The translations under genes and the position numbers were made by a program. Under the pieces are notes generated by a model. It was not told the origin of the DNA and did no database searches. It saw only the letters and a list, made by a program, of their open reading frames with translations. This document shows, piece after piece, positions 15,026 to 23,179 of a DNA stretch of 64,000 bases (the first letter of the stretch is position 1; every line of letters begins with the position of its first letter). The DNA comes from Streptomyces sp. V1I1 (GTDB taxonomy: Bacteria > Actinomycetota > Actinomycetes > Streptomycetales > Streptomycetaceae), in assembly GCF_030817355.1 (NCBI RefSeq), contig NZ_JAUSZH010000001.1:1798001-1862000 (forward strand). The letters are read 5' to 3'.

Positions 15026-17773
<2,748 letters not shown>

Positions 17774-17868: not shown

Positions 17869-17886
17869 TATCTCGATGTCGAGATA
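17869..17886. promoter_or_regulatory. Perfect 18-bp palindrome upstream of acnA, TamR-like site
   Basis: TATCTCGATGTCGAGATA has two perfect 8-bp arms around TG. Its form is that of MarR/UrtR-subfamily operators. From memory, TamR of S. coelicolor, an aconitate/citrate-sensing MarR protein, binds upstream of the aconitase gene. The identification as a TamR site is inference. Confidence 0.6.
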
Positions 17887-21267: not shown

Positions 21268-21622
21268 GGCTTCAGCACGAGCATCGTGACGTACCCGACG
21301 TGCCAAAGAGATCGACTCTTCCAGCAGCCGGGACAGGAGAGTTCGAGATCAAGCACTGAACCGCAGGCCTGGCCACATCGGGCGAGATTTTCCAGCCCTG
21401 CTTCAAGTGGCCACCCTGGTGAGACGACGTCCGAAGCGCAGTCTCACCACACCTGTCCAGCCGCAGGTCAGCGACTGCCCCCAGGCCACCATTACGGAGA
21501 TGGGACACTCACCCGGTCGCCGCTGCATGGATGCCGAGCGGGGCCGAACTACCGCTTTACGAGCCGCGAACACCCGATTGCCCACAGCCTGTCACCCCGA
21601 TGGCCTATCCCCGCGCGATCAC

Positions 21623-21638
21623 ATCTCATATCTGAGAT
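21623..21638. promoter_or_regulatory. Operator-like palindrome before the HTH-MurA gene
   Basis: ATCTCA-TATC-TGAGAT, a perfect 6-4-6 inverted repeat only 11 bases before the ATG at 21650. It overlaps a plausible -10 region (TATCTGAGAT), so the transcript would be short-leadered or leaderless. A Cro/CI-type protein would bind such a site. Confidence 0.55.
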
Positions 21639-21649
21639 AGCCTGCGGCC

Positions 21650-23179
21650 ATGGCAGACGATTACCTCGTACGCATCGGCAAGCTCATCCGTGACGCCCGT
21701 CAGCATCGGGGCTGGACACAGACGCAGCTTGCCGAGGCGCTCGGCACCAGCCAGAGCGCCGTGAACCGCATCGAGCGCGGCAACCAGAACATCAGCCTTG
21801 AGATGATCGCGCGTATCGGTGAGGCGCTCGACAGTGAGATCGTCTCGCTCGGCTACGCCGGGCCCATGCACCTTCGGGTGGTCGGCGGCCGTCGGCTGTC
21901 CGGTGCCATCGACGTCAAGACCAGTAAGAACGCGTGTGTCGCGCTGCTCTGCGGTTCGCTGCTGAACAAGGGCCGTACGGTACTGCGCCGGGTGGCCCGC
22001 ATCGAAGAGGTCTTCCGGCTGCTGGAGGTGCTGAACTCCATCGGGGTGCGCACCCGCTGGATCAACGAGGGCGTCGACCTCGAGATCGTGCCGCCCGCGC
22101 AGCTCGACATGGACGCGATCGACGCGGAGGCGGCCCGCCGGACCCGGTCGATCATCATGTTCCTCGGGCCGCTGCTGCACCGGATGGACACCTTCCGGCT
22201 GCCGTACGCGGGCGGCTGCGACCTCGGCACGCGGACCATCGAGCCGCACATGATCGCGCTGCGCCGCTTCGGCCTCGACATCACCGCGACCGAGGGGCTC
22301 TACCACGCGAAGGTCGAGCGCACGACCACGCCCGAACGCCCCATCGTGCTGACCGAGCGCGGCGACACGGTGACCGAGAACGCGCTGCTCGCCGCCGCCC
22401 GGCACGACGGGGTGACCGTCATCCGTAACGCCTCCTCCAACTACATGGTCCAGGACCTGTGTTTCTTCCTGGAGGCGCTGGGCGTCAAGGTCGAGGGCGT
22501 CGGGACGACGACGCTGACCGTGCACGGTGTGCCGACCATCGACGTGGACGTCGACTACTCCCCCTCCGAGGACCCGGTCGAGGCGATGAGCCTGCTGGCC
22601 GCGGCGGTGGTCACCGAATCCCAACTCACCATCCGCCGGGTGCCGATCGAGTTCCTGGAGATCGAGCTCGCGGTGCTGGAGGAGATGGGCCTGGACCACG
22701 ACCGTACGCCGGAGTACCACGCCGACAACGGGCGTACCCGGCTGATCGATCTGACCGTGCGGCCCTCCAAGCTGGAGGCGCCGATCGACAAGATCCACCC
22801 GATGCCGTTCCCCGGCCTGAACATCGACAACGTCCCGTTCTTCGCGGCCATCGCGGCGGTCGCCCAGGGCAAGACGCTGATCCACGACTGGGTCTACGAC
22901 AACCGCGCGATCTATCTGACGGACCTGAACCGGCTGGGCGGCCGCCTCCAACTCCTGGACCCGCACCGAGTCCTGGTGGAGGGCCCGACCCGCTGGCGCG
23001 CGGCGGAGATGATGTGCCCGCCGGCGCTGCGGCCCGCGGTGGTGGTGCTGCTGGCGATGATGGCGGCGGAGGGCACGTCCGTACTGCGCAATGTGTATGT
23101 CATCAACCGGGGTTACGAGGAGCTGGCGGAGCGGCTGAACTCGGTGGGCGCGCAGATCGAGATCTTCCGGGACATCTGA
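21650..23179 (+). CDS. murA2: XRE helix-turn-helix fused to MurA-like enolpyruvyl transferase
   Basis: About 509 residues. Residues 5-65 are a Cro/CI HTH (HRGWTQTQLAEALGTSQSAV then NRIERGNQNISLEMI). Residues 72-505 are an EPSP-synthase-type MurA domain, which adds enolpyruvate to UDP-GlcNAc at the first step of peptidoglycan synthesis. The equivalent of E. coli Lys22-Asn23 is TSKNA near residue 90, and the Cys115 loop is GGCDLGTRT near 189, so key catalytic residues are kept. Ordinary MurA has about 420 residues and no HTH. From memory, S. coelicolor SCO5998 has the same layout, next to aconitase. The protein may control its own gene through the palindrome directly upstream (inference). Confidence 0.9.
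   Translation: MADDYLVRIGKLIRDARQHRGWTQTQLAEALGTSQSAVNRIERGNQNISLEMIARIGEALDSEIVSLGYAGPMHLRVVGGRRLSGAIDVKTSKNACVALLCGSLLNKGRTVLRRVARIEEVFRLLEVLNSIGVRTRWINEGVDLEIVPPAQLDMDAIDAEAARRTRSIIMFLGPLLHRMDTFRLPYAGGCDLGTRTIEPHMIALRRFGLDITATEGLYHAKVERTTTPERPIVLTERGDTVTENALLAAARHDGVTVIRNASSNYMVQDLCFFLEALGVKVEGVGTTTLTVHGVPTIDVDVDYSPSEDPVEAMSLLAAAVVTESQLTIRRVPIEFLEIELAVLEEMGLDHDRTPEYHADNGRTRLIDLTVRPSKLEAPIDKIHPMPFPGLNIDNVPFFAAIAAVAQGKTLIHDWVYDNRAIYLTDLNRLGGRLQLLDPHRVLVEGPTRWRAAEMMCPPALRPAVVVLLAMMAAEGTSVLRNVYVINRGYEELAERLNSVGAQIEIFRDI

Follow-up and report, generated by a model that had tools for sequence, protein, structure and literature searches.

murA2 of Streptomyces as a putative self-controlling enzyme: a conserved palindrome in the predicted promoter of an HTH-MurA fusion gene

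Does an enolpyruvyl transferase that carries its own DNA-binding domain control its own gene? This question is raised by murA2, a gene in a 64,000-nucleotide stretch of Streptomyces sp. V1I1 (assembly GCF_030817355.1, contig NZ_JAUSZH010000001.1, positions 1,798,001 to 1,862,000; the whole stretch is called here the window). Its product joins a Cro/CI-type (XRE) helix-turn-helix (HTH) domain to a MurA-fold enzyme, and a palindrome precedes its start codon. An earlier reading of the bare sequence, the original prediction, proposed that the enzyme represses its own gene and senses uridine diphosphate N-acetylglucosamine (UDP-GlcNAc) or phosphoenolpyruvate (PEP), linking peptidoglycan precursor supply to transcription. 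Our analysis suggests that MurA2 is probably a one-gene feedback module, which would repress its own gene through a conserved operator. We consider autorepression well supported because a dedicated operator, near single copy and present class-wide, abuts the predicted -10 box and shares its half-site and spacing with the hipB sites. The features on which this reading depends are the following.

21623..21638, no strand: putative operator, palindrome ATCTCA-TATC-TGAGAT, with 11 nt between it and the ATG
21638..21643, + strand: -10 box TAGCCT (TAnnnT) in a promoter predicted to be leaderless; the palindrome end and the TA of the box overlap, and +1 is predicted to fall at or beside 21650
21650..23179, + strand: murA2, fusion of an XRE-type HTH and a MurA-fold enolpyruvyl transferase, 509 amino acids, ATG start

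The open reading frame (ORF) at 21650-23179 is the published Streptomyces murA2 (SCO5998, sven5810, vnz_28735), because it has the acnA neighbourhood and because the published SCO5998p promoter sequence lies upstream of orthologues (355-375 nt upstream at loci L070 and L077). The gene was present in 60 of the 61 genomes of the genus, the one without it being 82% complete.

We propose that TATCTCA-n4-TGAGATA in the murA2 promoter would be bound by a dimer of the N-terminal HTH. As the palindrome takes up the spacer of the putative leaderless promoter and reaches its -10 box, bound protein would exclude RNA polymerase and repress murA2. The MurA-fold domain, which appears to have kept the PEP/enolpyruvyl chemistry and rebuilt its acceptor pocket, would probably catalyse (or bind) and report the state of its substrate to the HTH, like other trigger enzymes. 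In Streptomyces, a BldM-WhiI site further upstream would add developmental activation.

Conservation of the palindrome and its place in the promoter

The palindrome was located where the original prediction had placed it, and the genome scan proposed there gave a single exact copy of ATCTCANNNNTGAGAT in the 8.3-Mb genome. When up to two mismatches were allowed, the window held five matches, against 0.93 expected, and only the murA2 site was exact. The exact palindrome stood at the start codon of 55 of the 60 murA2 genes located in the 61 genus genomes, in all of which the backward control pattern gave no match.

To follow the site among orthologues, 203 loci were reduced to 185 distinct 110-nt upstream regions by merging identical ones; one locus with a frameshifted gene (L233) had been removed before counting, and some genomes may occur in both source collections. 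Of the 185 regions, 177 had the relaxed motif NNCTCANNNNTGANNTA, always at -25 to -30. By protein identity to the window, it was found in 130/138 upstreams at 88% or more, in 3/3 at 78-88% and in 44/44 at 60-78%, that is, in all 47 upstreams of orthologues below 88%. It was absent from the regions further upstream (0/185) and from the last 50 nt read backwards (0/185). In the 47 distant upstreams, mean pairwise identity was 83% over the 18-mer, a value partly built in by the nine bases that the search pattern fixes, and 32% over the preceding 39 nt. The CTCA, TGA and TA columns reach 2 bits by construction, and the weight rests on the controls and on the columns that the pattern leaves free, which carry 0.5-1.9 bits. 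Among the eight upstreams that missed the motif, the right arm is degenerate in seven and carries a single change in the eighth (L107). In the degenerate loci (L021, L034, L056, L078, L105, L108 and L183) the sequence is TATCTCACATCMGATATA, and the outer TATC and GATA lie closer together.

Furthermore, a class sample of 246 genomes included 71 with a MurA2 match (65-100% identity, two split genes apart), 22 of them Streptomyces. In 68 of these 71, ADCTCANNNNTGAKWTA was found at most 70 nt from the start codon, and all 71 together held only seven other copies. The three without it were a Streptomyces whose site has a degenerate arm (G070), a genome whose site differs by one letter (G461) and one with a frameshifted gene (G325). 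Since the genes carry the site at their start and other copies are sparse, the site follows the gene, and on this comparative evidence the operator is a phylogenetic footprint. A lack of conservation upstream of orthologues had been named in the original prediction as the outcome that would speak against it; what we observed was conservation across the class. The commonest forms in the class are TWWCTCA-n4-TGAGWTA, i.e. TATCT-N8-AGATA and near variants, and many distant sites have TAACT in one half; in the same hipB-type notation, the window palindrome reads CATCT-N8-AGATA.

The protein is conserved along with the site. In the class sample, 69 of the 71 MurA2 matches span the protein from residues 1-6 to residue 508-509, the other two genes being split, which indicates that the HTH has been retained. 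Among 296 genomes of the phylum, 12 matched MurA2 at E <= 1e-100, and each of these belongs to this class; 264 of the non-matching genomes came without a class listing, so that this figure yields no share outside the class. By name, protein records place the gene in Arthrobacter and relatives, Angustibacter luteus, Mumia and Aeromicrobium. Gene and operator seem to form a unit, because no neighbouring ORF group was common to more than three of 11 wider regions from other families; acnA was near murA2 in one of these 11, as in Streptomyces.

Some loci depart from the common pattern. At L253 (G440:C24:75900-80000), murA2 is in two pieces separated by a short gap, and a second operator copy lies about 1.16 kb upstream. 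At L254 (G325:C1:1260500-1264500), the orthologue lies in two frames and also has no operator, which is what joint decay of gene and site would produce. Orthologues with 83-86% identity occur at L199, L200 and L201 in family f19, most sampled genomes of which do not carry the gene; these cases suggest horizontal transfer of gene and operator.

With respect to the promoter, 175 of the 177 motif-bearing upstreams have a TAnnnT word whose end lies 5-9 nt ahead of the start codon, in 173 of them 6-8 nt ahead; its TA is shared with the motif by construction, the final T being the informative base. A Shine-Dalgarno-like word was found in none of the 185 upstreams. In S. coelicolor, TANNNT is the -10 motif of 80.4% of transcription start sites, and 21% of primary start sites are leaderless (PMC4895711; this and the other papers are cited here from excerpts). 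Because TAnnnT lies close to the start, a Shine-Dalgarno word is missing and S. coelicolor offers the precedent, we predict a leaderless murA2 promoter whose spacer is filled by the palindrome, which also touches the -10 box. The overlap of palindrome and promoter that the original prediction had noted would thus lie in the TA shared with the predicted -10 box, and a protein bound there would be expected to block the promoter. The palindrome was also considered as an RNA hairpin; this idea was rejected because the predicted leaderless transcript would not contain it.

The enzyme domain and its altered pocket

The protein features are listed below, with E. coli MurA as the reference.

21686..21841, + strand: HTH_3 (Cro/CI) domain, residues 13-64, Pfam match
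21752..21775, + strand: recognition helix, residues 35-42 (QSAVNRIE), a helix in the AlphaFold2 model
21869..23164, + strand: MurA-fold domain, residues 74-505
22217..22219, + strand: Cys190, equivalent to E. coli MurA Cys115, C in 54/54 aligned orthologues
22355..22369, + strand: ERGDT, residues 236-240, in place of E. coli MurA K160-V-S-V-G (diphosphate region), 54/54 aligned orthologues
23015..23032, + strand: CPPALR, residues 456-461, in place of (A)TD-LR, an exchange that loses E. coli Asp369 and inserts one residue, 54/54 aligned orthologues

Both halves of the fusion are well above their Pfam cut-offs: HTH_3 scored 57.1 bits (cut-off 23) over residues 13-64, and EPSP_synthase 144.6 bits (cut-off 22.8) over residues 79-496, so the domain make-up proposed in the original prediction is confirmed. 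The enzyme half has the inside-out alpha/beta fold of MurA and EPSPS. The Lys-Asn and Cys signatures that had been noted are Lys93-Asn94 and Cys190, equivalent to K22-N23 and C115 of E. coli MurA. Across the 54 orthologues that were aligned, a selection from 202, the residues for catalysis and PEP, namely K22, C115, R120, D305 and R397 (E. coli numbering) and their neighbours, are kept without exception.

These invariant residues agree with the part of the original prediction that concerns PEP. In the same spirit, MurA2 could be a second MurA in the full sense, with a catalytic site that detects UDP-GlcNAc and PEP and couples murA2 transcription to the supply of peptidoglycan precursors. This alternative is compatible with autorepression, and we regard it as rather unlikely on account of the acceptor side. 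In all 54 orthologues Ser162-Val163-Gly164, described as the biphosphate binding region of MurA (PMC8698320), is replaced by Gly-Asp-Thr, P121 by T and L124 by P, and D369 is lost, so that MurA2 lacks the residues P121, S162-V163-G164 and D369 of the diphosphate/uridine region. The canonical MurA of the same genome (G000:C1:5088524-5089786; 35% identity to E. coli MurA) keeps P121, S-V-G and D369. It is one of three PF00275 genes in the genome; the others are murA2 and a gene weakly like E. coli MurA, by inference AroA. In addition, MurA2 misses the NCBIfam murA equivalog TIGR01072 (302.6 against 392.7 bits) and passes the broader subfamily NF006873 (317.4 against 297 bits). Since the diphosphate region is replaced, TIGR01072 is missed and a separate canonical MurA is present, the acceptor, and hence the signal, of MurA2 may not be UDP-GlcNAc, and its sensing of this compound is doubtful.

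MurA2 therefore differs from MurA in its N-terminal HTH, in ERGDT for KVSVG, in the replacement of Asp369 with an inserted residue and in its TIGR01072 score. NikO, the nikkomycin enolpyruvyl transferase (PDB 4fqd), is a solved chain without an HTH. With 26% identity to MurA2 it is no nearer a relative than the MurA entries, which have 23-29%. The rows of a VIA-align structure comparison span the MurA domain alone and say nothing on the HTH.

A wider extension, which we offer as a tentative possibility, is that class-wide actinomycete enolpyruvyl transferases act on an acceptor other than UDP-GlcNAc, each with a Cro-type head and a single operator, the enzyme being its own metabolite sensor in a portable one-gene circuit for an undiscovered enolpyruvyl metabolite. 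The label 'UDP-GlcNAc 1-carboxyvinyltransferase' would come into question for database entries that probably number in the thousands: one distant MurA2 member has matches in 7,999 protein clusters at E <= 1e-60, a total of which the best 120 were listed, without individual checks. The operator would be a simple handle for finding the true substrate of MurA2.

What binds the palindrome, and with what effect

The HTH of MurA2 has DBP48 (a designed protein), C.AhdI, C.BclI and HipB as its closest solved relatives. Its recognition helix is strongly conserved: a [TS]SQSA[VI] motif was printed for 200 of the 202 orthologues (the two exceptions being a sequence in which no QSA was picked up and a sequence in which an earlier QSA was read instead), and Q35, S36, A37, R40 and E42 are invariant in 28/28 sequences. 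The likeness to HipB extends to the DNA. The E. coli K-12 hipB promoter has four TATCC-N8-GGATA sites, which we take to be bound by HipB, and they share half-site and spacing with TATCT-N8-AGATA, the common murA2 representative of the form TATCY-N8-RGATA. HipB is a small antitoxin that has a kinase as its partner; MurA2 is instead fused to an enzyme and falls below the cut-off of the hipB-like family TIGR03070. No widely shared murA2 neighbour appeared in the 11 wider regions, a HipA-type partner not having been searched for specifically. In a survey of XRE proteins, nine of ten tested, picked for confident complex models, bound a palindrome upstream of their own gene (PMC12565409). MurA2 likewise combines an HTH_3 above its gathering score with a conserved palindrome upstream of its own gene.

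We also looked for co-variation of half-site and HTH. In the distant group f21 a TAAC half-site coincides with His for Asn in the helix, but TAAC occurs with Asn elsewhere, and no clear case was found (no statistics were applied).

Could the palindrome be the site of another regulator of MarR, TetR or other XRE type, with the MurA2 HTH acting elsewhere or vestigial? A look-alike in the window gives this alternative its weight. Upstream of acnA (aconitase, 15026-17758, - strand), a perfect 18-bp palindrome, TATCTCGATGTCGAGATA (17869-17886), is the second-best operator match of the genome. It is conserved in 93/93 loci with the acnA upstream and in 61/61 Streptomyces genomes, and is found in none of the 49 non-Streptomyces genomes with MurA2. 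Eight other genomes of the class have it, all without MurA2, and in four of them it stands before acnA (one locus per genome was inspected). As it occurs before acnA where MurA2 is missing, we rejected it as a MurA2 site and assign it to another regulator, probably of TamR type, a MarR protein named as repressor of aconitase (PMC5487221). Hence the shape of a palindrome does not by itself name the binder. A similar palindrome, AACTCATATTTGAGATA, lies at L248 (G380:C67), in a genome without MurA2, between genes for an XRE-cupin-like regulator and a LysE-like transporter as judged by eye, and perhaps serves another XRE protein with a similar site. Against a foreign regulator at murA2 stand the presence of the palindrome at the HTH-enzyme gene in 68/71 genomes and its rarity otherwise, the invariant recognition-helix residues, and the need for a single-target regulator to be co-kept in many families whose murA2 regions share so few neighbours. 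We therefore judge this alternative unlikely.

A further recurrent site in other genomes, ATCTCAACGTTGAGATA (ATCTCAACGTTGAGAT), was seen at L249, L250, L251 and L252. At L249, the one locus with listed ORFs, it lies near a MarR-type gene (by eye), with a AACGTTGAG repeat nearby, and it was rejected. In the acnA promoter there is also an iron-box-like stretch, between TATCTCGATGTCGAGATA and acnA or beside TATCTCGATGTCGAGATA.

If MurA2 is the binder, it could still activate its own gene, e.g. by MerR-like reshaping of the spacer or by contact with RNA polymerase. In line with activation of this kind, we saw no conserved -35 box, and the spacer is taken up by the palindrome. Some bases of the site, however, also belong to the predicted -10 box, and Cro/CI-type proteins on sites overlapping a -10 box normally exclude polymerase; moreover, Streptomyces already has an activator site at about -58. 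Activation is accordingly improbable in our judgement.

It should be noted that several observations weigh against autorepression by MurA2. The HTH reaches 55.5 bits for TIGR03070, where 71.65 are needed, and the acnA palindrome, which shares the geometry, is almost certainly the site of another regulator. In seven Streptomyces upstreams the right arm is degenerate, yet the recognition helix has not changed. Twelve exact copies of the palindrome lie elsewhere in the 60 genus genomes with a located murA2. The 175 class genomes without murA2 hold 31 scattered relaxed copies, in 23 genomes, against 17 matches of the backward control, all 17 of which, by our own count, are in genomes without murA2. 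Finally, BldM-WhiI already controls the murA2 promoter.

Developmental control and published accounts of murA2

In the window, the corresponding upstream feature is a weak match.

21592..21607, no strand: candidate site of the BldM-WhiI heterodimer, reverse of TGnnCCGnnCGGGTGA, at -58 to -43, with three mismatches to the 12 defined bases

Across the genus the pattern of a BldM-WhiI (group II) promoter is seen, the reverse of TGnnCCGnnCGGGTGA with at most two mismatches being found in 95 of 138 upstreams, mostly at -57 to -60, against 1/138 for the reversed control. BldM-WhiI footprints have been reported on the murA2 promoter of S. venezuelae (PMC4125116). In the 47 distant upstreams the site was not seen (0/47, the control there also being 0), and therefore the operator appears to be conserved more widely than developmental control. 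An ordinary developmental MurA paralogue, with an HTH of no regulatory role and the conserved block as an unusual promoter, would fit the published control of murA2 by BldM-WhiI (PMC4125116), SigB (PMC8346170) and possibly DmdR1 (PMC12161575), and is very improbable given that the block is two-fold symmetric and conserved where the BldM-WhiI site is not seen, and that the HTH is retained in 69/71 genes.

The gene and its BldM-WhiI control were thus already known. In the published excerpts murA2 is treated as an enzyme or cell-wall gene (PMC12161575, PMC8346170) and as a target or overexpressed gene (PMC4125116, PMC11005364), and those on BldM-WhiI, SigB or DmdR1 control make no mention of its HTH, operator or altered pocket. 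Among the papers listed from the open-licence literature, outside which most subscription papers lie, none dealt, by title or abstract opening, with a fusion of HTH and MurA or with the operator of such a gene; fusion, operator and altered pocket were not found in the literature searched.

Trigger enzymes, which unite a DNA-binding domain and an enzyme, are a known class, and one of them, PutA, is a single-target regulator that acts as repressor of its own promoter (PMC8249747). Like PutA, BirA and NadR, MurA2 has both parts on a single chain. The five E. coli trigger enzymes listed in the excerpt of PMC8249747 include no MurA, and the likeness of MurA2 to them rests on sequence and model. If the HTH binds the operator, murA2 would encode a self-controlling trigger enzyme in many actinomycete families, and BldM-WhiI control of late sporulation would be activation placed on top of feedback repression.

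A last observation concerns SCO5998p, the SigB promoter. At L027, a related locus, a small ORF (MPLTFRKSFRILPG...), which we take to be DUF4236-like, lies about 65-265 nt upstream of murA2. Because transcription from SCO5998p would need to read through a small ORF in the stretch between, this promoter may not drive murA2 directly, and possibly serves the L027-type small ORF.
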